Part shown: one piece after another, positions 8,064 through 64,000 of the stretch
Layout of the letters: each line of letters begins with the position of its first letter
Position numbering within the stretch: the first letter of the stretch is position 1
Virus record (IMG/VR): IMGVR_UViG_3300024999_000057
Span: 38,670 to 102,669 of that record
Source: a virus
Length of the DNA: 64,000 bases
Strand: one strand, 5' to 3'
Program-made: the position numbers and the translations under genes
Notes under the pieces: generated by a model
What the model saw: the letters and a program-made list of their open reading frames with translations, nothing else
What the model was told of the DNA's origin: nothing
Database searches by the model: none

Positions 8064-9962
8064 CTATATCCCTGAGTAAAATTGCCTGTGGGGGAAATCC
8101 TGCTCGCGCCTAACTTTGTGCCATGATTTAACCGAGGTCAGGAAACCCACAACGCGGGTCAGCTTGTCCACAATTTCTCCTCCGCATTCCGAGCAGGTCT
8201 CCGAGATCCCCACGGTCATGTGGCCGTTCTCGCATTTGTTCAGTAGGAAGTTGATCGCGAAGTAGATGACCCCAGCTTTAGCTGCAGCCTTAATCAAATC
8301 CACCACCAGCTTGGGATCTTCGATCTTCTGCTCCACGTTCAGGTGGCAGATGGAGCCCCCAGAGAAGTGCTTGTCGAAAAGCCCTTGGAGCATTATGCGA
8401 TCCAACAGGTCCGCCTCGACCGTAAGGGGGATAAACTGGTTGCTGTAGAGGTCGTAGCGACTATTGAACCCCAGCAACCGGTCCTTCTCCGCGAGCTTCA
8501 CCGAAACATTTTCTCCAGGGATCTGCTCGCAATTGTGGGGCGACTTGAGTTTCTTCTGCCACCTGTCGTTCTCGGAGTTGATCGTGTTCAGGATTGCCAG
8601 CACGAAATCCTGCCCGTCTCTGGTCATTATGTCATAGCCCATGATCTCACAGGCTTCGTTCAGGCCGTTAACCCCGCAGGTCGAGTATTGCTTGTTGAGG
8701 TCCATGAACCCATGAGAGTAAAGCGGGAGGTTCCCGTTCTCGATTCTCTTCTTGACGATGTGCCTTTTCGTGTTGTTGATTCGGGAGCACGTCCCAACTA
8801 ACCGCTCTACCTCGGAGAAGAATTTCTCGGGGTCCTTTTTATACCGGAAGGCCAGCTTCGGCATGTTGATGGTGACTACACCGAGCGAGCCGATTTTGCT
8901 GGAGCCAGAACCGAAGGAGTTGAAGTACTCGTTGTCGGTCTCGCTGCGGAGGCGGCAGCACGAACTGAGCGTTGACGATTTCCCGGTGTAGATGTTGATG
9001 AAGCCGAATTCGAGGTTCCTCTCCGCGACCTGGTTGAGGAAGGTCTCGTCGTGGATTTCTCCTGAATCATCTACTGCGAAGCACGCAGTCGTTACCGGGA
9101 ACGTAATGGCGGTTCTTCGCATTTCGGTGTTCATGACATCGAGGAAAAGCATCTGCAGCTTTTTCACGATCTCGATGTCTGGAGTGGTGCCGTCAGGGAA
9201 AACGTAGTTCGGACAGAGGCTCCCCAAGAATTCCTCGTCGTAAACCGAGACATTCGTGAAGGGGCTCTGGGATGCCCTGAGCGGCTGATTGACGGTGTAG
9301 ATGAAGGACACGAGATTCTCCTTCACATAACGCCAGCAATCCTCTTCGCTCGCGAAGCTGAAGTTAGCGTCCATCTTGGTTGCCAAGATGTTCTTGACGT
9401 AGTAGCTCATGACGATCAGGAGATCCGCAAGTCCTGCTGCTCCCAGCGTCGAATTGCTGGCGAGCACGACGAACTGCTCCAGTTGCGACTTGAAGCTGTA
9501 GAGGTACTTGGGAGGCACCGAGGTGATTTTGCTGATCATCGGGAGCCCGAGAAGCATCACGTCGTAGGTCGAGTAGTTGAAGCAGTAGGCTTGGGACGAT
9601 CCGATACCATGAACGTCATTCACGTAGATGTCCCCGCAGACCTGCATCTCGATAACCTCGTCAGATGTCTCCTTCCCGTAGAGCTTCTTGAAGTGCTTCC
9701 ACAGCATGTAGTAGGAATTCAGCTTAAGGAATGGCTTGGGCAACTCCGCGTTGTAGACGATGATGCTCATGTCGCCCAAGTTGGAGTTGGCGTCTATCGA
9801 GACATCAGCCGTAGTTTTAGCTGCGAAGAAATCCTTGGAGAACTTGGGGAGGTCGAGTTGCTTCCCGATCCCATCCATATCGAAAAGCTTTTGTGGATAC
9901 TTGGATTTGAGGAGATCCATCAATTCTTCGAACTGAGGGTCGTAACTGAAGAAGATATTCAT
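8064..9962 (-). CDS. nrdD: Anaerobic ribonucleoside-triphosphate reductase, large subunit
   Basis: Class III reductase that makes dNTPs without oxygen, using formate as reductant. The C-terminus holds the Zn site ('CENGH' and 'CSEC', about 577-593) and the glycyl-radical Gly606 in 'RVVGFL' (the usual form is RVCGYL). 632 aa, at the short end for the family because no N-terminal ATP-cone is visible, as in T4 NrdD. Starts at ATG after CAGGAGCACC. Implies a host growing anaerobically at least at times. Confidence 0.95.
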   Translation of the reverse strand: MNIFFSYDPQFEELMDLLKSKYPQKLFDMDGIGKQLDLPKFSKDFFAAKTTADVSIDANSNLGDMSIIVYNAELPKPFLKLNSYYMLWKHFKKLYGKETSDEVIEMQVCGDIYVNDVHGIGSSQAYCFNYSTYDVMLLGLPMISKITSVPPKYLYSFKSQLEQFVVLASNSTLGAAGLADLLIVMSYYVKNILATKMDANFSFASEEDCWRYVKENLVSFIYTVNQPLRASQSPFTNVSVYDEEFLGSLCPNYVFPDGTTPDIEIVKKLQMLFLDVMNTEMRRTAITFPVTTACFAVDDSGEIHDETFLNQVAERNLEFGFINIYTGKSSTLSSCCRLRSETDNEYFNSFGSGSSKIGSLGVVTINMPKLAFRYKKDPEKFFSEVERLVGTCSRINNTKRHIVKKRIENGNLPLYSHGFMDLNKQYSTCGVNGLNEACEIMGYDIMTRDGQDFVLAILNTINSENDRWQKKLKSPHNCEQIPGENVSVKLAEKDRLLGFNSRYDLYSNQFIPLTVEADLLDRIMLQGLFDKHFSGGSICHLNVEQKIEDPKLVVDLIKAAAKAGVIYFAINFLLNKCENGHMTVGISETCSECGGEIVDKLTRVVGFLTSVKSWHKVRREQDFPHRQFYSGI

Positions 9963-34038: not shown

Positions 34039-34049
34039 TTCTACCTCCC

Positions 34050-34063
34050 ATTCAGATGTGAAT
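34050..34063 (-). promoter_or_regulatory. A-type palindrome, leader 1 of 3
   Basis: Minus-strand ATTCA-CATC-TGAAT placed between the upstream stop codon (3 nt away) and GGGAGGTAG. Whole intergenic gap is only 28 nt. Confidence 0.6.
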
Positions 34064-34066
34064 TTG

Positions 34067-49094: not shown

Positions 49095-51107
49095 TTATTC
49101 CGCCGCTTTAATATTCAGCAGCGGCCTGATGTGGTCGATCACACTCACGGTGACTCCCTCCTGCTTTGCCAGCACGTAATTGATGTCCTTGTAGGCGGCG
49201 GGCGCCTCATCCAGGATTGAGCGGTTGGTGGAGCAGATGATGCCTTGCATCCCGTCCTTGAACTCCTGATAATCCAGCGTCTTCTTCGCTTGGTTCCTTC
49301 CCATGACCCTACCGCAGCCGTGAGATGCCGAGGAGAGATAATAGGACTCGCCCAAGCCTTCCGTGATGTACACGCCATCTCGCATGTTGGCTGGGATCAC
49401 ACCAAGCTGCCCCAGGTCCGCAGGAGTCGCTCCTTTGCGGTGCAGGACGCCCTCAGGAGTTACGACGGCGTGATTGTGGTTCTCGTTGATGACGCGGTTC
49501 GCTAACTGGTTAGGGTGCAGCCCTAGGCATTGTAGCACTTGGGTCATCATCCGCAGCCGATTCTCCAGTGCCCACTCCAGAGCGAAATTCATGTCCTGAA
49601 GATAAGCCTGTCCAAGCTCAGACTCCAGAGGGAACAACCGGCCCTTCTTCATGTACCAACCGCCGATTGTATGGCCTACGTTCCTGGACCCCGAGTGAAT
49701 CGTGACGCAGAGGTTGCCCTTCTGGTTCTCGCCAAGCTCTATGAAATGATTTCCGCCACCTAGCGTTCCGAGTTGGGTGCCAACTTTAGCCTGGACTCGC
49801 TGGTGCGTGTTAACATCCATCACGTCTGAAAACAGCACCCAATCGTAGCCTTGGTCCTTTGTATGTGAGGAGAACCCCGTAGGAATCACCTTCAGGATGT
49901 CGTTGTAGATGCCTCGGAGGGTAGTCACGCTCGCAGCCTTGATGCCTGTGTCTAACGAGCACATTCCACAGTTTCCAGTGATAAAAATCTTGTTGTTGCG
50001 CCTAGCTACGAAATATCCCGAAGGAACCGTGAAGCAATATTCTTTACCGTCTTGAGACGACACGAAGTTAATCGCCTCGTTTTTGGTTAGTCCCACATAC
50101 TCGTTTTTGGTTTTGTAAACCCACCAAGTTGAGTTCCAATCTTTCCCCTCGTAAGAGTGGCAGTGTATGCCAGTTCTGGCCCCCGCCACCGTAAAGGCAT
50201 ACTGAATTAAATCCGCATTTTGCTTGCAAGTAGCGGAAAAAGCTTCGTGCTCACCCACTGTACCATCCCAATGCAAACATTCTTCTGCAATAATTCTGAG
50301 TTGCGCTTCGCTACTTGCCCAGAAAATAGACAGGTCCTTAGTGACTCGATAGTCCCTGAAGTATATGTAGGTGCTGCCATCCACACCTACGGTTAACTCG
50401 TAATTTATTCCCGCCTGGTTAAGCAGTTCCTGGGCTCTAATTATTTTCCTCTCTTTTCTGAAGTGTAGTTCAGTGGTGCCTTGCTTTCTTATGTGCCCAT
50501 CCGCACTCACCATGACAATTACCCTGAGGATAGCATCAGTCATATCCAAATCAGGATTACTTAATTTGAACGTGGTTTTTATTCCGCCTTGTAGTCCTTT
50601 ACCTAGAGACCTGTGCTTTTCCACTAGTTCTTTAGTTGCATACACTTTGGGCTTATACCCCCGCGACTTGTATCCATGCCAGAACAGCACCTTGTGACCC
50701 GAAGACAGCATTTGATCCATGCCATCCTTGTGCCACAGATGGTAGAAGCCCTCTGATGGTTGCACCACATAACGCTGGGGTACTACAAACGATGCTTCAT
50801 CGGTAGTCGGGTTGTACTGAAGTACCTCGCCACCCCCGTATTCTGAAATTTTAACCCAACCACTAGGAGACAAAAACTCAGTGTCCTTATCAAGGCACCC
50901 GATATCGTATCCGACGAAAGAAGGAGAGATCATCCCCTCTAAAAGAGCGACTCCTCCAATCGGCAGGTCGTAACCTGCATGGACATCCGGCATGATCGCC
51001 AGCTTCTTCAGGCAATCCAATTCCAGTACATCAAAAATCTGCTGCTGAGCAGACTGCTCAATTTCCTCCAGTGGAACCGTCGAGAACAACCTGTTGAGCT
51101 TGCTCAT
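49095..51107 (-). CDS. rtcB: RtcB-type RNA ligase precursor interrupted by an intein (670 aa)
   Basis: GTP- and Mn-dependent ligase for 3'-phosphate and 5'-OH RNA ends (repair of cleaved tRNA). Residues 1-70 and 380-670 form a 361-residue mature protein: 'AIMPDVHAGYDLPIGGVAL', 'FVGYDIG', then after the intein 'CGMCSLDTG', 'LGTLGGGNHFIELG', 'TIHSGSRNVGH', 'HNHAVVTPEGVLHRKGATPA', and 'SHGCGRVMGRNQAKKT' with His and guanylylated-His regions. Joining 'VGYDIG' to 'CGMCS' restores the family hallmark. The intein must splice for activity. Somewhat shorter than bacterial RtcB (about 400). Confidence 0.93.
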   Translation of the reverse strand: MSKLNRLFSTVPLEEIEQSAQQQIFDVLELDCLKKLAIMPDVHAGYDLPIGGVALLEGMISPSFVGYDIGCLDKDTEFLSPSGWVKISEYGGGEVLQYNPTTDEASFVVPQRYVVQPSEGFYHLWHKDGMDQMLSSGHKVLFWHGYKSRGYKPKVYATKELVEKHRSLGKGLQGGIKTTFKLSNPDLDMTDAILRVIVMVSADGHIRKQGTTELHFRKERKIIRAQELLNQAGINYELTVGVDGSTYIYFRDYRVTKDLSIFWASSEAQLRIIAEECLHWDGTVGEHEAFSATCKQNADLIQYAFTVAGARTGIHCHSYEGKDWNSTWWVYKTKNEYVGLTKNEAINFVSSQDGKEYCFTVPSGYFVARRNNKIFITGNCGMCSLDTGIKAASVTTLRGIYNDILKVIPTGFSSHTKDQGYDWVLFSDVMDVNTHQRVQAKVGTQLGTLGGGNHFIELGENQKGNLCVTIHSGSRNVGHTIGGWYMKKGRLFPLESELGQAYLQDMNFALEWALENRLRMMTQVLQCLGLHPNQLANRVINENHNHAVVTPEGVLHRKGATPADLGQLGVIPANMRDGVYITEGLGESYYLSSASHGCGRVMGRNQAKKTLDYQEFKDGMQGIICSTNRSILDEAPAAYKDINYVLAKQEGVTVSVIDHIRPLLNIKAAE
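49971..50897 (-). mobile_element. Intein (309 aa) in RtcB with LAGLIDADG-like endonuclease
   Basis: Residues 71-379. Block A starts 'CLDKDTEFLSPSGWVK'; block B 'MLSSGHKVLFW' supplies the conserved His; the end 'FFVARRNNKIFITGN' before Cys380 is block F/G, with the usual penultimate His replaced by Gly. The centre has 'VIVMVSADGHI' and 'LRIIAEECLHWDGTV', spaced as the two motifs of a LAGLIDADG homing endonuclease but degenerate. The +1 Cys is the metal-binding Cys of RtcB, the typical intein insertion point. Confidence 0.9.
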
Positions 51108-51123
51108 TTTCTCCTCCTTTAAA

Positions 51124-51137
51124 ATTCACTTCTGAAT
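51124..51137 (-). promoter_or_regulatory. A-type palindrome before rtcB
   Basis: Exact ATTCA-GAAG-TGAAT (minus strand) 6 nt upstream of the AAAGGAGG of rtcB, and just after the terminator of the regulator gene. Confidence 0.6.
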
Positions 51138-51146
51138 TCCTACTCC

Positions 51147-54714: not shown

Positions 54715-55392
54715 CTACCCAATCCTCACCAGCAGATTCTTGACGCCCTGTGAAGTCCAGACCTTTTTCTTCCTGGGAGTCTGGATTCCTGCTTCAGTCA
54801 ATTGCTGAGCCAAGGCGGTTAAAGAGGTGATTCCTTGGTTCTGGAATTTGATTATTTCAGGTTTCAATTTCTCGGCGCGAAGATCCGCTTTGGTCCGGTT
54901 CTTGAGAGAGCCTTGGATTCTGCCATCTCCAAATTTGGCTTCATCTCTGTTCAAGTGGCACGCCTTGCCCAGTTGAACTCCCTTGGCCTTAGCCGCCTTC
55001 AGGCCGTTCTTGGTCCGCTCCCTGATCCTCTCCAACTCGTACTCAGCTACGCAGCCGAGCACGTTCAGTACGAACCTGCTTGTGTTGGGGAAGTCGCAGA
55101 TGATGATCTCGACTCCGGAATCCAGGATCACGGTGAGGAACGAGAGGCTCCTCGAAAGTCTGTCAAGTCTTGCTGTGATCAGCCTGCAGCCGGTCAACTC
55201 GCAGTAGTTCAGGGCCTCCTTGAGAACCGGTCTTTCCTTGTTGGAGCCAGATTCTACCTCGGTGTACTCCTTGATGACTTCGAGATTGTGACGGGTTGCG
55301 TAATCAGCAACTATGGCTCGCTGAGCGTCGAGTCCGTGTCGCTCTGACTGTCCTTTGGTTGAGACACGGCTGTAGAAAATGCACCGTTCCAT
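54715..55392 (-). CDS. Serine recombinase, resolvase/invertase type (225 aa)
   Basis: N-terminal catalytic domain: 'IFYSRVSTKGQSERHGLDAQ' (nucleophile Ser11 in the RVS motif), 'GCRLITARLDRLSRSL' (Arg pair), 'VAEYELERIRERTKNGL' (E-helix). The C-terminal 60 residues hold an HTH-like DNA-binding part ('TALAQQLTEAGIQTPRKKK'). Too short for a large serine integrase, so it more likely resolves multimers or inverts a segment. A 30-bp palindrome lies 316 nt upstream. Confidence 0.9.
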   Translation of the reverse strand: MERCIFYSRVSTKGQSERHGLDAQRAIVADYATRHNLEVIKEYTEVESGSNKERPVLKEALNYCELTGCRLITARLDRLSRSLSFLTVILDSGVEIIICDFPNTSRFVLNVLGCVAEYELERIRERTKNGLKAAKAKGVQLGKACHLNRDEAKFGDGRIQGSLKNRTKADLRAEKLKPEIIKFQNQGITSLTALAQQLTEAGIQTPRKKKVWTSQGVKNLLVRIG

Positions 55393-58098: not shown

Positions 58099-58127
58099 AT
58101 TTTAATTCACTTCTGAATTTTTGTCAA
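58099..58127 (-). promoter_or_regulatory. Promoter with A-type palindrome filling the spacer
   Basis: TTGACA, 17 nt, TAAAAT on the minus strand; the exact palindrome ATTCA-GAAG-TGAAT (58105-58118) lies entirely between -35 and -10, so a bound protein would block RNA polymerase. Confidence 0.85.
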
Positions 58128-58128
58128 G

Positions 58129-58302
58129 CTAAAAATCCCAGTTCCTCCCAGCATCTTCGTTCAGAACGAAGAGGATTTCCAGCTCCTCCCCACACTCCGG
58201 GCAGTCCTGATCCGCCGAAATGAAGGAGCAATCTGAGGCAAGGACCAGGTTTTTATTAATGGAGTACCAAGAAATCTCGTTGCCGCAGTTAGAGCACTTC
58301 AT
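58129..58302 (-). CDS. Zinc-ribbon mini-protein (57 aa)
   Basis: Found by reading the gap: 'MKCSNCGNEISW' and 'DCPECGEELE' make a four-Cys ribbon. ATG behind GGGGGTTGT. Its stop overlaps the promoter of the next operon. Confidence 0.65.
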   Translation of the reverse strand: MKCSNCGNEISWYSINKNLVLASDCSFISADQDCPECGEELEILFVLNEDAGRNWDF

Positions 58303-58343: not shown

Positions 58344-58379
58344 ATTTCAGAACATTAAAGAATTATAATAAAAAAAGAC

Positions 58380-58530
58380 TTGACAAACTATTAGAAACCG
58401 TGGTATTTTATAAACCGGCGCTAGCCGATGAAGTTATAGGTTTATACCCCTAGTAACTGGGTAGGGATTAGCGAGCCTTTTACCAGAATAGTACTTGACT
58501 AATTCGATAAAGAATTAATCCCTCGCTACC
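58380..58530 (+). ncRNA. Outward-facing non-coding element, copy 1 (candidate RNA)
   Basis: On the strand opposite all nearby genes: TTGACA (58380), 18-nt spacer, TG-extended TATTTT (58404). Then hairpin CGGC-GCTA-GCCG (58416-58427), the conserved core 58431-58475, and a stem AGGGATTA / TAATCCCT (58463-58470 with 58516-58523). The core is 32 of 36 identical to copy 2 at 59455-59490. The far arm overlaps the stop of the gene 58515-58859. No clear terminator, so the end is approximate. Confidence 0.5.
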
Positions 58531-58859
58531 GAGTAGCAAACCGATTCCCAGTTGAAGGTTAATTCGAGTTCCATCGCTCCATTCTCCCAGGTCCAGAACT
58601 TGAGTTGGAATCCTCCGATTCCTAGCCGGTTGTACACCAGATGATTTGGAGCCTGGAGGATCTCCTTCAGCCTGGAGAACATCGAGCAGCAAGAGGAGCG
58701 CATCGCGCCGGTCGTAGGAACCTGAGATTCTCCGTTGGGTCCCTGATTCACCCAGGTCCACCTAGTAATCAGCATTAGGGCTCTCACCTTTTCGAAGTCG
58801 AATTTTTCCATGATTTCGGTGAAGGTATTTTCTATGTTTTGGATTTGAGTTGCGTTCAT
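58515..58859 (-). CDS. Hypothetical protein (114 aa)
   Basis: Soluble alpha/beta protein from 'MNATQIQNIENTFTEIMEKF'; 'GAMELELTFNWESVCYSVARD' at the end. Its last codons are complementary to the core of the non-coding element. No family recognised. Confidence 0.6.
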   Translation of the reverse strand: MNATQIQNIENTFTEIMEKFDFEKVRALMLITRWTWVNQGPNGESQVPTTGAMRSSCCSMFSRLKEILQAPNHLVYNRLGIGGFQLKFWTWENGAMELELTFNWESVCYSVARD

Positions 58860-58871
58860 TATTTTAATCGG

Positions 58872-59057
58872 TTATCGTCCAGGAACCGCAGGAAGCGGTA
58901 TCCAATGTGTAGGTGTCTCGTCGTAGAAAACGCTACCGTGGACCTCGAAGCACTGATCCGGGATGTTCCAGATCATCACGAAAGGCCTCTTCAGGTGAGG
59001 ATCATAGCCGAGGATGTGGCAGTCCTTCGGAGCCGTCTCGATTGGTTGCCAGTTCAT
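58872..59057 (-). CDS. DUF551-like small protein (61 aa)
   Basis: Opens 'MNWQPIETAPKD' and ends 'THWIPLPAVPGR', the DUF551 pattern (W-P--T-P-D ... THW-PLP) common in phages. One or two related genes occur (59887-60132). Function unknown. Confidence 0.85.
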   Translation of the reverse strand: MNWQPIETAPKDCHILGYDPHLKRPFVMIWNIPDQCFEVHGSVFYDETPTHWIPLPAVPGR

Positions 59058-59059
59058 TT

Positions 59060-59353
59060 TTATGCCTCCTCAGCTTTTTTGATAGCCTGCTCGGCGATAA
59101 CCAGCAGGTCCGAAATATCGTTGGTGCTCATCGGGCCGAAAGCCTCCATCCCCAAAAGCCTGGCGTGAAGATCCTTCAGAGCATCCAAGAGAGCAGGAGC
59201 CTGGGAGATTAGGAGGGCGTTGGCCTCGGTTTCTCCAAGGACAAGGTAGGACAAGTTGCGCACCACCGCCACTCCCCGCCCTGCTCCCCATATCGTAGCG
59301 TATTGATTTCCATGCCCTGTTATCTCCCAAGGCCTCTTCGTGTGCTTGCTCAT
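59060..59353 (-). CDS. Conserved phage protein (97 aa)
   Basis: Contains 'ETEANALLISQAPALLDAL', the ANA-LI--AP-LL-AL signature of a widespread phage family of unknown function; N-terminal 'RPWEITGHGNQYATIWG' also typical. ATG after GGAGGTAGG. Preceded by non-coding element copy 2. Confidence 0.8.
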   Translation of the reverse strand: MSKHTKRPWEITGHGNQYATIWGAGRGVAVVRNLSYLVLGETEANALLISQAPALLDALKDLHARLLGMEAFGPMSTNDISDLLVIAEQAIKKAEEA

Positions 59354-59396
59354 TTCCTACCTCCAATTATTAGAGAAAAATAATTTAATTTGCCAC

Positions 59397-59520
59397 TTGA
59401 CAAATCCCAAAAGTGTGGTACACTTAAAATCGCCGAAGGCAAAAGAAGATTATAGTTTATACCCCTAGTAGTTGAGTAGGGTTTAGCGAGGATTTGCTCT
59501 CTACTAAACCCTACTGATTT
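59397..59520 (+). ncRNA. Outward-facing non-coding element, copy 2 (candidate RNA)
   Basis: Plus strand: TTGACA (59397), 16-nt spacer, TG-extended TACACT (59419). Then hairpin GCC-GAA-GGC (59432-59440), the core 59446-59490, and a perfect 11-bp stem GTAGGGTTTAG / CTAAACCCTAC (59476-59486 with 59504-59514). Relative to copy 1 the stem has A-T exchanged for T-A and hairpin 1 is also changed but still pairs. The minus strand has TATAAT (complement at 59448-59453), so the other direction is also possible. Confidence 0.55.
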
Positions 59521-59543: not shown

Positions 59544-59738
59544 TTATCCCGTCACATTTAGGCCGATGAAATCCGGCCTGGATAACTCCTTCAACTTGTC
59601 AGCCACTTCCTTCGTCCCGAACTCATGGGTCCAGACGGGCCGACCGAAAAGCTCCTCGGCGTAAGCGTGCATGGCTGCGAAGCTACCGAGTAGGAATCCG
59701 GTGTAGGCTGAAACGATTGCTGCTTCTCTTTTGGTCAT
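59544..59738 (-). CDS. Conserved phage protein (64 aa)
   Basis: 'MTKREAAIVSAYTGFLLGSF' and 'EELFGRPVWTHEFG' match a small phage family ('TKREAAIVSAYTG-L-G----H-YAEE--GRPV-THE') of unknown function. ATG after GGAGATTTG. 3' neighbour of element copy 2. Confidence 0.85.
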   Translation of the reverse strand: MTKREAAIVSAYTGFLLGSFAAMHAYAEELFGRPVWTHEFGTKEVADKLKELSRPDFIGLNVTG

Positions 59739-60690: not shown

Positions 60691-60710
60691 TTTATTTCTC
60701 CTTCAAAAAT

Positions 60711-60722
60711 GTGAGATTTCAC
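60711..60722 (-). promoter_or_regulatory. B-type palindrome GTGA-GATT-TCAC
   Basis: Touches the stop codon of the 210-aa gene and precedes AAGGAG of the 90-aa gene. Confidence 0.55.
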
Positions 60723-61355
60723 TTAAACCCGCTCGCCGTTTTCGTAGAACTCGTACTCGTTGGCCCTGATTGCATCGTCAAGCTGCTCGTCGGAGTTCAG
60801 GTAGTCGTTCTCGGTGCTGAGTTGTTTATAAATCCAGTCCATGAAATCCCGGAGGCAAGATGCCACCTCCTCTTCAGCGGACTCAGACACGTCTTTGTAA
60901 TCGAGGCGGCTTACCTCGATGGTCGTGCTGCGTGAATGGCTGTAGTGGCCTGTGTGTTTCACCGTAGCGTGAAGTTGGTAAAAGTTAGCCTTCTGGACTT
61001 CCTGCAGTCGGGCCACGATCCGATGTAGATTCTCGTCCACAGGAGCGTAGGCTTTCAGCTCCTTCAACGCTCCTTTCTTGTAGTTGTAGTAGCCTTCGAA
61101 GCAAGCGCCATCTCCCTGCGAGTAGAATCCGGACCACCAGATGTTAGGCTCCTGCCTGGTGCCTCCTCCGTAGAGTTGCACGGAGTGGGTGGAAAACTCG
61201 ATGCCGAGGATCTCCCCTACACGAACCGCGTCTTCGATTACGTAGTCATAATCGTTCTGGTCGATTAGTTCCCTCCACCAATCCCGTGCCTTCTCCTTTG
61301 CTGATTCGGAAAGCTCGTCGAACTGGTAGGCCAATTTTGTTATTTCTCTGGGCAT
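60723..61355 (-). CDS. Conserved phage early protein (210 aa)
   Basis: N-terminus 'YQFDELSESAKEKARDWWRE' and 'RQEPNIWWSGFYSQGDGACF' are hallmarks of a phage family sometimes labelled 'antitoxin of toxin-antitoxin stability system', without experimental proof. Central and C-terminal parts are alpha/beta. No TA partner is seen next to it. Function unknown. Confidence 0.75.
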   Translation of the reverse strand: MPREITKLAYQFDELSESAKEKARDWWRELIDQNDYDYVIEDAVRVGEILGIEFSTHSVQLYGGGTRQEPNIWWSGFYSQGDGACFEGYYNYKKGALKELKAYAPVDENLHRIVARLQEVQKANFYQLHATVKHTGHYSHSRSTTIEVSRLDYKDVSESAEEEVASCLRDFMDWIYKQLSTENDYLNSDEQLDDAIRANEYEFYENGERV

Positions 61356-61374
61356 TTCGTGCCTCCCTTAAAAT

Positions 61375-61394
61375 GTGAATATTCACTTCTGAAT
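61375..61394 (-). promoter_or_regulatory. Overlapping B-type and A-type palindromes
   Basis: GTGA-ATAT-TCAC (61375-61386) and ATTCA-CTTC-TGAAT (61381-61394) share 6 bp. They lie directly before the GGGAGGC of the 210-aa gene. Only such composite in the window. Confidence 0.6.
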
Positions 61395-61574
61395 TCATAC
61401 CTTCCAAACTTGGATGGTAAATTGCTTGTCCTCCGGGAACCTCTGCTTCATTTTTTGAACTGCCTCTTCCTCTGAAGCAGCGTCGATGTAGTAGCCTTGT
61501 CTTGCTGAGGGATCTTTGTGTCCGGGGCATCCGGGATCGTAGCAATCGGGACGTGTTAGGCGGAATTGAGTCAT
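61395..61574 (-). CDS. Small hypothetical protein (59 aa)
   Basis: ATG 61574 with AAAGGAGGAAATAA is preferred. 'LTRPDCYDPGCPGHKDPSAR' contains a Cys/His motif, and 'EEEAVQKMKQRFPEDKQFTI' looks like a small double-psi or RHH-type fold; 'IDAASEEEAVQKM--RFP' is common in phage proteins. Confidence 0.65.
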   Translation of the reverse strand: MTQFRLTRPDCYDPGCPGHKDPSARQGYYIDAASEEEAVQKMKQRFPEDKQFTIQVWKV

Positions 61575-61588
61575 TTTATTTCCTCCTT

Positions 61589-62023
61589 TTAAATGTCGAG
61601 AAATCCAGGGCCATTCCCTTCTTCGTCCTGGAGTATCCATGCGGTGGTGCCGTCGTCGAACACGAGGGCGTAGAAAACATCCCCTCCAAAGTCATCAGCT
61701 CCGTCGTCCTTAACAATCCGGACAACCCGCTTGCCCATGAGTTGACCGTAGTGTCTCATGTAAGGGTCCGAGGCCAACAAAGCAGCCTCCATCGGGTCTC
61801 CTACTTCAGGGAAGGATTGATTAACGCGGCCAATAAATTCCTTCATTGCCTCGGCCTCTTCATCGGTGAAAATCCGCTCGCCGGTCTTGATGTCCACTAC
61901 ATCGAACGGATCGTCCTCGAAGTGGTACATCTTGCCCAAGTCCTGCAACTCTTCGCAGAAGCTGTAGAAGGTCTTTTTGATGAGCGGGTTGCAGCGGTTG
62001 ATTGCTTCGATTACTTTGGACAT
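61589..62023 (-). CDS. Hypothetical protein (144 aa)
   Basis: Acidic alpha/beta protein, 'MSKVIEAINRCNPLIKKTFY' to 'YALVFDDGTTAWILQDEEGN'. No motif recognised. RBS AAGGAGGAAATAA, preceded by the B palindrome. Confidence 0.6.
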   Translation of the reverse strand: MSKVIEAINRCNPLIKKTFYSFCEELQDLGKMYHFEDDPFDVVDIKTGERIFTDEEAEAMKEFIGRVNQSFPEVGDPMEAALLASDPYMRHYGQLMGKRVVRIVKDDGADDFGGDVFYALVFDDGTTAWILQDEEGNGPGFLDI

Positions 62024-62041
62024 TTTATTTCCTCCTTAAAT

Positions 62042-62053
62042 GTGAGATTTCAC
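62042..62053 (-). promoter_or_regulatory. B-type palindrome GTGA-GATT-TCAC
   Basis: Overlaps the TGA of the 127-aa gene and precedes ATTTAAGGAGG of the 144-aa gene. Confidence 0.55.
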
Positions 62054-62433
62054 TTTTTGGTTCGCTCAGTCAATTCATCGACCACCAGAATATTTGCGAA
62101 GTAATCCCCTTCATTCCCTGCGGATGAATACTTTTCCTCCACGAAATCGTCCTCTTCAAATCCCTGCTCCAGAGCGTCCCTCCTGAGTTCCTCGATGTAC
62201 TCCGGATCTGCGAAGTAGCCTTTGTAGCCCTTGTCTTTGCAGTAGTCGGCTATGGCGTCATGACAGGCGCTGAGATCTGAGCTCCCGTGAATCAGGAATC
62301 CAGCCGAGACATAGCAGCCGGTATCAAGCCAGATGATGTAGGTATTGGGCCAGAAATGCTTGTCCTCGGGATTTACGTAGTCGATGGCTCTACGGTAGTC
62401 TTTTAATCTGGTGGCGAAGTCTTTGCGGTTCAT
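62050..62433 (-). CDS. Hypothetical protein (127 aa)
   Basis: Has 'RLKDYRRAIDYVNPEDKHFW' and 'EQGFEEDDFVEEKYSSAGNE'. The repeated acidic Asp/Glu runs suggest DNA mimicry or a protein binder, but nothing is established. RBS AGGGGAGGC. Confidence 0.6.
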   Translation of the reverse strand: MNRKDFATRLKDYRRAIDYVNPEDKHFWPNTYIIWLDTGCYVSAGFLIHGSSDLSACHDAIADYCKDKGYKGYFADPEYIEELRRDALEQGFEEDDFVEEKYSSAGNEGDYFANILVVDELTERTKK

Positions 62434-62453
62434 AATGCCTCCCCTTAAAAAAT

Positions 62454-62465
62454 GTGAAATCTCAC
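62454..62465 (-). promoter_or_regulatory. B-type palindrome GTGA-AATC-TCAC
   Basis: In the short gap between the 46-aa and 127-aa genes, followed by AAGGGGAGG. Confidence 0.55.
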
Positions 62466-62470
62466 TTTTC

Positions 62471-62611
62471 CTACCTAAACATCCAGCTACACAAAACCAA
62501 CCCGCTAATCACAACCATCAAAACCAGGATCTGTCCAATGATAGTTTCTTCGTCTCTTTTGGCTGCGAGTTCGGCACGTTGTTTTAAAACGGTGTGAGAA
62601 ACGTAGTTCAC
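62471..62611 (-). CDS. Membrane mini-protein (46 aa)
   Basis: GTG start after GGAGGTGG; a charged N-terminus (MNYVSHTVLKQRAELAAKRD) and a C-terminal hydrophobic helix ('ILVLMVVISGLVLCSW'). Four-nt GTGA overlap with the upstream gene. Confidence 0.55.
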   Translation of the reverse strand: MNYVSHTVLKQRAELAAKRDEETIIGQILVLMVVISGLVLCSWMFR

Positions 62612-62748
62612 GAAACCACCTCCACTCTCTCGCTACGAAGATCGACCCAAGCCAATCCATCGTTAAACTGCACCAAAACCATATCCGCCAATTCTTCAAG
62701 GCAGGTTCCACATCCGGTTCCTGCGACGAAAACTTGTTTATTTTTCAT
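62608..62748 (-). CDS. Cys-containing mini-protein (46 aa)
   Basis: 'VAGTGCGTCLEEL' (GTGCGTC, reminiscent of a redox or metal loop) and an acidic end 'WVDLRSERVEVVS'. RBS AAAGGAGAAC. Function unknown. Confidence 0.55.
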   Translation of the reverse strand: MKNKQVFVAGTGCGTCLEELADMVLVQFNDGLAWVDLRSERVEVVS

Positions 62749-62767
62749 TTTTAGTTCTCCTTTAAAT

Positions 62768-62779
62768 GTGAGAATTCAC
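62768..62779 (-). promoter_or_regulatory. B-type palindrome GTGA-GAAT-TCAC
   Basis: Overlaps the TGA of the Ala/Tyr-repeat gene and precedes ATTTAAAGGAG of the mini-gene. Confidence 0.55.
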
Positions 62780-63456
62780 TTTCTTCCCATTACCATCTTC
62801 ACGGCTTCATCCGCCAGTTTCCCGAAGTCAATCTCAGGAGCATACGCCGCCGCATACGCCGCCGCCCTCGCCGCATACGCCGCCCTCGCCGCATACGCCG
62901 CATACGCCGCATACGCCGCCGCCCTCGCCGCATACGCCGCCGCCCTCGCCGCATACGCCGCCGCATACGCCGCCGCCCTCGCCGCATACGCCGCCCTCGC
63001 CGCATACGCCACCGAAGGATTCTTCAGATACTCCTTCGCAGCTTCGACAGCTTTCCGAGGCCTGTCGTCTCCAGGCATGACATCCTCGAAGTGGTGCAAA
63101 ACCACCTCAGCACATAGGATAGCGAAGGCGACCCGAACCAGCTGTTCCTTCTCCGATCCTACCCACTTAGGCAACTTCAACTCCTTCACGACTTCCTGGG
63201 TCAAGCTACCTACTTTCCCGAAGTCGTGACAAACTACGGCGCCTTTAATCTCCCAAAGTTTTGGGTTGCTAATATCCGCATGAATCGGGTTAAGGAGGAA
63301 CACCAGGTTCTTGTTCCTGTACGCATGGAGCACGTCGGAGGAACAGAGTCGCGGATTATCCTTTTTAGGCTTGGTGTGGATCTTTTCGACTTCGCCGTAG
63401 GGGTAGCCGTTGTAGGTGGTTCCGTCTTGATTAGTGAGTTTGAATAATTTCTGCAT
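62776..63456 (-). CDS. Protein with long Ala/Tyr/Arg repeat (226 aa)
   Basis: Residues 1-148 form a globular domain with 'RVAFAILCAEVVLHHFEDVM' and 'DISNPKLWEIKGAVV'. Residues about 149-208 are a run of 'AYAARAAYAARAA' units, ending 'DFGKLADEAVKMVMGRK'. The DNA repeat is built of GCRTAYGCCGCC and GCCCTC blocks, so it can expand or contract. The repeat would be a straight alanine-rich helix with periodic Tyr and Arg. Function unknown. Confidence 0.65.
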   Translation of the reverse strand: MQKLFKLTNQDGTTYNGYPYGEVEKIHTKPKKDNPRLCSSDVLHAYRNKNLVFLLNPIHADISNPKLWEIKGAVVCHDFGKVGSLTQEVVKELKLPKWVGSEKEQLVRVAFAILCAEVVLHHFEDVMPGDDRPRKAVEAAKEYLKNPSVAYAARAAYAARAAAYAAAYAARAAAYAARAAAYAAYAAYAARAAYAARAAAYAAAYAPEIDFGKLADEAVKMVMGRK

Positions 63457-63479
63457 TTTGATCTCCTTTAGGTTAAAAT

Positions 63480-63491
63480 GTGAGAATTCAC
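63480..63491 (-). promoter_or_regulatory. B-type palindrome GTGA-GAAT-TCAC
   Basis: Precedes the AAAGGAG of the Ala/Tyr gene. A one-mismatch A-type site (CCACTTCTGAAT, 63504-63517) is 13 nt farther away. Confidence 0.55.
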
Positions 63492-63520
63492 TTTTGCCTT
63501 CAAATCCACTTCTGAATTTA

Positions 63521-63637
63521 TCAGGGCATGAAAATAGCCACGGTGTAGTGATAGCCGTAGTTCATGTACCAATCCCAGGTCGTTTTGATTCGTTTGGTTT
63601 TGCCTGATTTTAGTTTGACTTCGCAGATGATGGACAT
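63521..63637 (-). CDS. Hypothetical mini-protein (38 aa)
   Basis: Begins MSIICEVKLKSGKTKRIKT and ends 'YGYHYTVAIFMP'. ATG behind AGGGAGGACT. Beta-rich, basic start; found by reading the gap. Confidence 0.55.
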   Translation of the reverse strand: MSIICEVKLKSGKTKRIKTTWDWYMNYGYHYTVAIFMP

Positions 63638-63656
63638 TTTTAGTCCTCCCTAAAAT

Positions 63657-63668
63657 GTGAGATTTCAT
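63657..63668 (-). promoter_or_regulatory. B-type palindrome (one mismatch) GTGA-GATT-TCAT
   Basis: Overlaps the TGA of the last gene and precedes TTTTAGGGAGG of the 38-aa gene. Confidence 0.45.
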
Positions 63669-64000
63669 ATTTCCTGACTAGGCACCCACTCGTAAATAAC
63701 TTCAGCTTTTTCCCCGGCGTGAAGCCTCCAAGTCTTGCCGTCGAAACTTGGTACCACTCCCATCTCCCACAATTTCTGGCAAGGCTCCCAAGGGTTAGGT
63801 CCTAAGTTTTCCACGTATTTCCATTCGGTTATTTCAGGAAAGAACGAGGCAGTATAGGCCCACACCGAGTCCCGCACCGAGTCCCGCACCGAGGCCCCCA
63901 CCGAGTCCCACACCGAGTCCCACACCGAGTCCCACACCGAGTTCCGCACCGAGTCCCACACCGAGTCCCCCACCGAGGCCCACTTTTGGAGTAATTCAAT
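63665..64000 (-). CDS. Protein with Trp-Asp-Ser-Val repeats (partial, at least 111 aa)
   Basis: The frame is open to the window edge, so the true start is outside. From the edge there are about ten four-residue units of the type [W/R/G]-[D/N/A]-S-V, followed by a globular end 'SFFPEITEWKYVENLGPNPW' and 'CQKLWEMGVVPSFDGKTWRL'. The DNA repeat is a 12-nt unit (GACTCGGTGTGG). The repeat may form a beta-helix or extended fibre. Function unknown. Confidence 0.65.
   Translation of the reverse strand: MELLQKWASVGDSVWDSVRNSVWDSVWDSVWDSVGASVRDSVRDSVWAYTASFFPEITEWKYVENLGPNPWEPCQKLWEMGVVPSFDGKTWRLHAGEKAEVIYEWVPSQEI

Follow-up and report, generated by a model that had tools for sequence, protein, structure and literature searches.

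Paralogous promoter-bearing elements opposite the leftward genes of an uncultured phage: a candidate pair of antisense small-RNA genes

Opposite the genes that surround them, the + strand of a viral genome carries two elements at a distance of 1,015 bp, each opening with a near-consensus sigma-70 promoter and containing a closely similar 36-nt core. With about even confidence, these elements are read here as paralogous small-RNA genes with promoters of their own, the non-coding products of which would pair with the leftward mRNA much as OOP and sar RNAs do. The promoters, their strand, the duplication and the retention of both copies by another phage are all evident in the nucleotide sequence, as is the lack of any conserved ORF. 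At the level of families, the best reading of the comparisons described below is that the elements form a new sequence family whose functional kind is already known.

Genome context and comparison set

The window (the whole stretch of DNA analysed, 64,000 nucleotides) covers positions 38,670-102,669 of IMG/VR virus record IMGVR_UViG_3300024999_000057, which totals 102,669 bp and is labelled G000 in its entirety. Given that a tyrosine integrase, a terminase, a portal, a major head protein and a DNA polymerase are encoded, G000 is probably a temperate tailed phage. In a phage collection, the terminase and polymerase of G000 had matches at <60% identity, many of the top ones being T5-like phages, and a megablast search of INPHARED returned no match. 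All clear genes in the right half of the window are on the - strand.

An independent relative, IMGVR_UViG_3300025013_000002 (G002, also L018), was found by protein search with the gene at 58515-58859; its DNA is about 80% identical to that of G000 (~75-84% per main aligned piece). The contig IMGVR_UViG_3300025000_000076 is 100% identical to the window over the compared stretch and was thus not counted as independent, and searches with the DNA polymerase, TerL and neighbouring proteins yielded no further genome spanning the element region. The comparison accordingly comprises two independent genomes and four element copies, two in G000 and two in G002.

The elements are set among small leftward genes. 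On its promoter side, copy 1 adjoins a 57 aa gene (58129-58302, - strand) that is weakly zinc-ribbon-like and has an orthologue in G002, while the 3' end of a 114 aa gene with no family assignment (58515-58859, - strand) faces the element from the other side. Copy 2 is similarly placed between a 97 aa gene matching phrog_1273, of unknown function (59060-59353, - strand), on its promoter side, and a 64 aa gene matching DUF7736 (59544-59738, - strand), the 3' end of which faces the element. A further small gene of 61 aa (58872-59057, - strand) lies between the copies in G000 and was not found between them in G002. The original prediction had pictured a three-gene cassette between direct repeats; the direct repeats are real, but the gene content between the copies is not fixed and differs in G002.

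A duplicated unit of promoter and core

The cores occupy 58440-58475 (copy 1) and 59455-59490 (copy 2), both on the + strand. They share 32 of 36 positions, as had been proposed from the first inspection, and a 34-nt pattern of the core, which gave 0 matches in 100 shuffles of the sequence, occurs just twice in the whole G000 genome. The elements had also been described as outward-facing, but both point one way and are direct repeats.

Similarity between the copies sets in 2 nt ahead of the -35 box and stops where the core stops, which is the pattern expected for a unit made up of a promoter and its RNA. Both elements are present in G002, in the same order and the same places and with both promoters retained. 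As orthologous elements are 85% identical between G000 and G002 while copy-to-copy identity is 65-70%, the duplication preceded the divergence of the two phages. The copy 1 core is 71% identical to its G002 orthologue, with identity falling to 56% after the core, and all four copies share the string ACCCC unchanged. Since the identity of the elements between the two phages (86-90%) is ordinary for their intergenic DNA (mean, 86%), conservation of the elements alone is not exceptional evidence. A sequence model built from the four copies recovered those four, together with the promoter part of one rightward structural promoter.

Two other identities for the repeated unit were considered and rejected. 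Recombination repeats (a serine recombinase is encoded at 54715-55392) are contradicted by the greater likeness of orthologous than of neighbouring copies, which implies that no homogenisation has occurred between the copies; that the duplicated block begins at a -35 box further disfavours them. A small peptide encoded on the + strand was discarded because no small ORF is conserved in the elements.

Promoters of the two elements

The strongest indication of transcription comes from the promoters, which had been noticed from the outset as TTGACA boxes with TG-extended -10 boxes on the strand opposite the genes, and which were ranked with a simple sigma-70 score across the full G000 and G002 genomes. 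Promoter 1 (58380-58409, + strand) consists of TTGACA, an 18-nt spacer and a TG-extended TATTTT, and ranks 3 in the 102.7-kb genome; promoter 2 (59397-59424, + strand) consists of TTGACA, a 16-nt spacer and a TG-extended TACACT, and ranks 5. Their G002 counterparts, TTGACA-18-TGGTATCCT for promoter 1 and a sequence 96% identical to that of G000 for promoter 2, rank 5th and 6th in that genome. A stricter filter retained 6 sites in G000 and 7 in G002, with both element promoters included each time. Each promoter is preceded by an A+T-rich, UP-element-like stretch on the + strand, at 58351-58379 for promoter 1 (where the 20 nt scored are 90% A+T) and at 59371-59396 for promoter 2 (TTATTAGAGAAAAATAATTTAATTT), and these stretches are 93% and 96% identical, respectively, in G002.

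Rightward structural genes in both phages are preceded by promoters of the same class, TTGAC(A/T)-16-TGTG(G/A)TA(T/C)AAT, which argues that the phage makes use of such promoters. As both element promoters are top-ranked and retained in G002, + strand transcripts are to be expected, short of proof, and transcription of both elements from this strand is considered likely.

A separate site in the relative, G002:49095 (L029 9095-9175, + strand), holds the highest-scoring promoter of G002, TTGACA-18-TGGTATAAT. It reads rightward into another leftward intergenic gap and is followed by the hairpin CTTTTCC-GAAA-GGAAAA, with no core; the string TTRTTAGAGAAAAATAAT occurs upstream of both this promoter and copy 2.

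Folding of the predicted RNAs

The predicted copy 1 RNA extends from ~58416 to at least 58475, and the predicted copy 2 RNA covers ~59431-59520. Each would begin at or next to a small hairpin, HP1, which is kept in all four copies. In copy 1 (58416-58427, + strand), HP1 reads CGGC-GCTA-GCCG and is identical in G002; in copy 2 (59432-59440, + strand), it reads GCC-GAA-GGC, with GCC-GCGA-GGC in G002. The change of sequence with retention of pairing that had been claimed for this hairpin is therefore verified. One pair is compensatory: the two copies 1 have G-C where copy 2 of G002 has C-G. HP1 of copy 2 in G000 is re-formed with a 3-nt loop in a shifted register. A second, A+U-rich hairpin with an ACCC-containing loop (HP2) is possible in each copy: at 58433-58457 (+ strand; GUUA.UAG ... 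CUA.G.UAAC), where it is the minimum free energy structure in two copy 1 folds, and at 59449-59472 (+ strand), where it appears weakly in the minimum free energy fold.

Copy 2 would end in HP3 (59475-59515, + strand), a 12-bp 3' hairpin formed by AGTAGGGTTTAG ... CTAAACCCTACT. HP3 is present in both copies 2 with its arms unchanged in G002, and directly after it the identity between the two phages falls from 0.88 to 0.44. In G002 the hairpin is followed by TTTTT in the manner of a terminator, which is not clearly so in G000, and HP3 was not listed by the terminator scan. No conserved 3' hairpin or terminator was found for copy 1 in the comparison of G000 with G002. The copy 2 fold, made up of HP1, the weak A+U-rich hairpin and HP3, has z scores of -2.4 in G000 and -3.8 in G002; for copy 1 the scores (-0.3 to -0.5) show no advantage over shuffled sequence. 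Among the four sequences, covariation amounts to one compensatory pair each in HP1 and HP2, counts not above those in shuffles. The structural support that holds up is that for HP1 (one compensatory pair) and for HP3 of copy 2.

This differs from the original prediction, which placed its main argument in a stem that exchanges an A-T for a T-A pair between the copies. The strings in question, GGGATTA:TAATCCC in copy 1 and GGGTTTA:TAAACCC in copy 2, are real, but the 3' arm in copy 1 (TAATCCCTCGC) is the C-terminal coding end of the gene at 58515-58859. In G002, the coding end of the orthologous gene stands beside a different, inserted gene, away from copy 1, and the stem is absent there; the apparent covariation is therefore accidental, the main stem of copy 1 was rejected, and the expectation that pairing would persist in further homologues failed in G002 copy 1. 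Adjoining coding sequence can thus mimic covariation between two copies. Transcription of a structured, or at any rate non-coding, RNA from the + strand is still the best reading. It keeps the support of the promoters, the duplicated unit and the conserved three-hairpin fold of copy 2; that of main-stem covariation and of the folding of copy 1 falls away.

Family searches

A search of Rfam (including C4, 6S and JUMPstart) gave no match to the elements at the gathering threshold and only noise at E up to 10, in keeping with the earlier impression that no known RNA family is involved. Three core patterns searched against IMG/VR retrieved, beyond the same virus and G002, only chance matches, which included ordinary short hairpins. 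The core pattern was also searched against 84,980 bacterial and archaeal genomes, where it gave three unrelated single matches at chance level.

Proposed mode of action and competing explanations

Both transcription and mode of action are inferred from the arrangement described above. Each near-consensus, extended -10 promoter would give rise to a short non-coding RNA, of ~85-90 nt and ending at the 12-bp HP3 for copy 2 and of at least ~60 nt for copy 1. Both RNAs would start in a gap between two leftward genes and run rightward as far as the upstream gene's 3' end; since a + strand transcript of this kind spans the gap, it would be perfectly complementary to the intercistronic leftward mRNA. 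Pairing would then lead to cutting or silencing of that mRNA at the gene junction, most likely as with OOP or sar. OOP- and sar-type RNAs are marked by a promoter of their own opposite the target transcript, an arrangement found here in the predicted promoters and gene strands. It counts against an OOP- or sar-like reading that the predicted RNAs leave the leftward gene downstream uncovered in its start region. Given the near-identical cores, either RNA could also pair at the other junction. An extension of this idea, that the twins are a coupled antisense pair by which two junctions of one leftward operon are silenced or processed together, is advanced only as a speculative and rather improbable addition.

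Among the competing explanations, the one that fares best, while still judged unlikely, is action in trans, with the C-rich ACCC(C), possibly displayed in the HP2 loop, pairing to G-rich ribosome-binding sites on mRNAs of the phage or its host. The invariance of ACCCC would suit such a role, and in several of the folds, of copy 1 and copy 2 alike, a loop contains or borders this string; two copies of a diffusible RNA are, moreover, common among trans regulators. Nevertheless, no gene start stood out among the 76 orthologous phage gene starts scored as targets: the best interaction reached -25.5 kcal/mol, whereas shuffled elements reached -27.1 kcal/mol, and 2 of 30 shuffles did better than the real element.

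Somewhat less probable is that the conserved block works mainly as DNA, with CTAAACCCTAC serving as the activator or -35 site of a leftward promoter (- strand -10, TATAAY/TATACT) that forms a mutually exclusive switch with the rightward promoter. The - strand does carry TATAAT, TATAAC, TATAAT and TATACT, one per copy, 21-22 nt beyond CCCTAC, and leftward genes begin ~100-140 nt beyond these -10 boxes; yet a TTGACA-like -35 is missing at the appropriate distance, the mere two occurrences of the motif per genome are unlike a phage-wide promoter class, and the onset of copy similarity at the + strand -35 box is left unexplained.

Less probable again is that the promoters alone matter, rightward transcription colliding with leftward transcription so that the sequence of the RNA is incidental. 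Such transcriptional interference would accommodate the absence of a conserved 3' end in both copies 1, as well as the strong rightward promoter at G002:49095, which likewise lies in a leftward gap and is followed by an unrelated short hairpin instead of a core; it does not accommodate the conservation of the core and HP1 between diverged copies or the intact HP3 in both copies 2. Lastly, a solitary CRISPR-repeat mimic (an RNA anti-CRISPR), suggested by the length of ~36 nt, the short hairpin and the dedicated promoter, is very improbable, as the core pattern was never found in an array in the bacterial and archaeal genomes searched and occurs in unrelated viruses only at chance level.

Comparison with known phage RNAs

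The antisense reading can be set beside three established phage RNAs, namely lambda OOP (77 nt), which acts in cis and promotes RNase III cutting of cII mRNA (PMC12197685; PMC5869508), P22 sar (68/69 nt), which inhibits synthesis of the ant antirepressor (PMC12197685), and c4 of P1/P7, a short structured regulatory RNA whose loops base-pair with mRNA (PMC12197685). The elements would resemble OOP in specifying a short RNA with its own promoter that lies in an intergenic gap, opposes an operon and reaches the 3' end of the upstream gene. They differ from it in showing no sequence relation (no Rfam match), in being two copies rather than one, in missing a clear terminator except in copy 2 of G002, and in having no evident target gene with a known regulatory function. 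With sar, the predicted RNAs would have in common that they are small, antisense and encoded between cistrons of a temperate phage, but they run away from the downstream leftward gene's start and leave its ribosome-binding site uncovered. With c4 the elements would share the character of a short structured phage regulatory RNA, from which they depart in giving no Rfam match and in not lying on the same strand as a target operon.

Other features of the two genomes

Several further features were recorded. An imperfect palindrome, AAATTCA(CATC/CTTC)TGAATTT, occurs in some 40 places across G000 and G002 (in the window at 58103-58120, 51122-51139 and 34048-34065, for example), mostly just upstream of Shine-Dalgarno sequences and start codons or in promoter spacers, and looks like a phage-wide, 'stoperator'-like network of repressor operators. 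A second palindrome family, AAATGTGAGATTTCACTT, is found in 7 places in G000 and about a dozen in G002, where it precedes leftward genes towards the right end (window 60707-63653). A tRNA-Gln-like 5' half, GGGGTGTCGCCAAGCGGTAAGGCAACGGACTCTGACTC on the - strand, adjoins the integrase gene (L026 ~255-295; G000 ~8500-8540) and is a candidate attP. Strongly repetitive genes, with AAYAAR-type and 12-nt tandem repeats, lie at 62776-63456 and 63665-63999 of the window, and their repeat length differs in the otherwise identical IMGVR_UViG_3300025000_000076. At 49095-51107, an RtcB-like protein is, judging by its translation, interrupted by an apparent intein with a homing-endonuclease-like region.

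Implications

In several temperate phages the life-style is determined or tuned by small antisense RNAs, but to our knowledge few such RNAs have been described from phages other than the models. A duplicated pair with conserved promoters in an uncultured phage lineage would lengthen this list and offers a concrete, testable locus. If the twins were indeed coupled, they would add control at the RNA level to a temperate phage lineage that has no close cultured relative.
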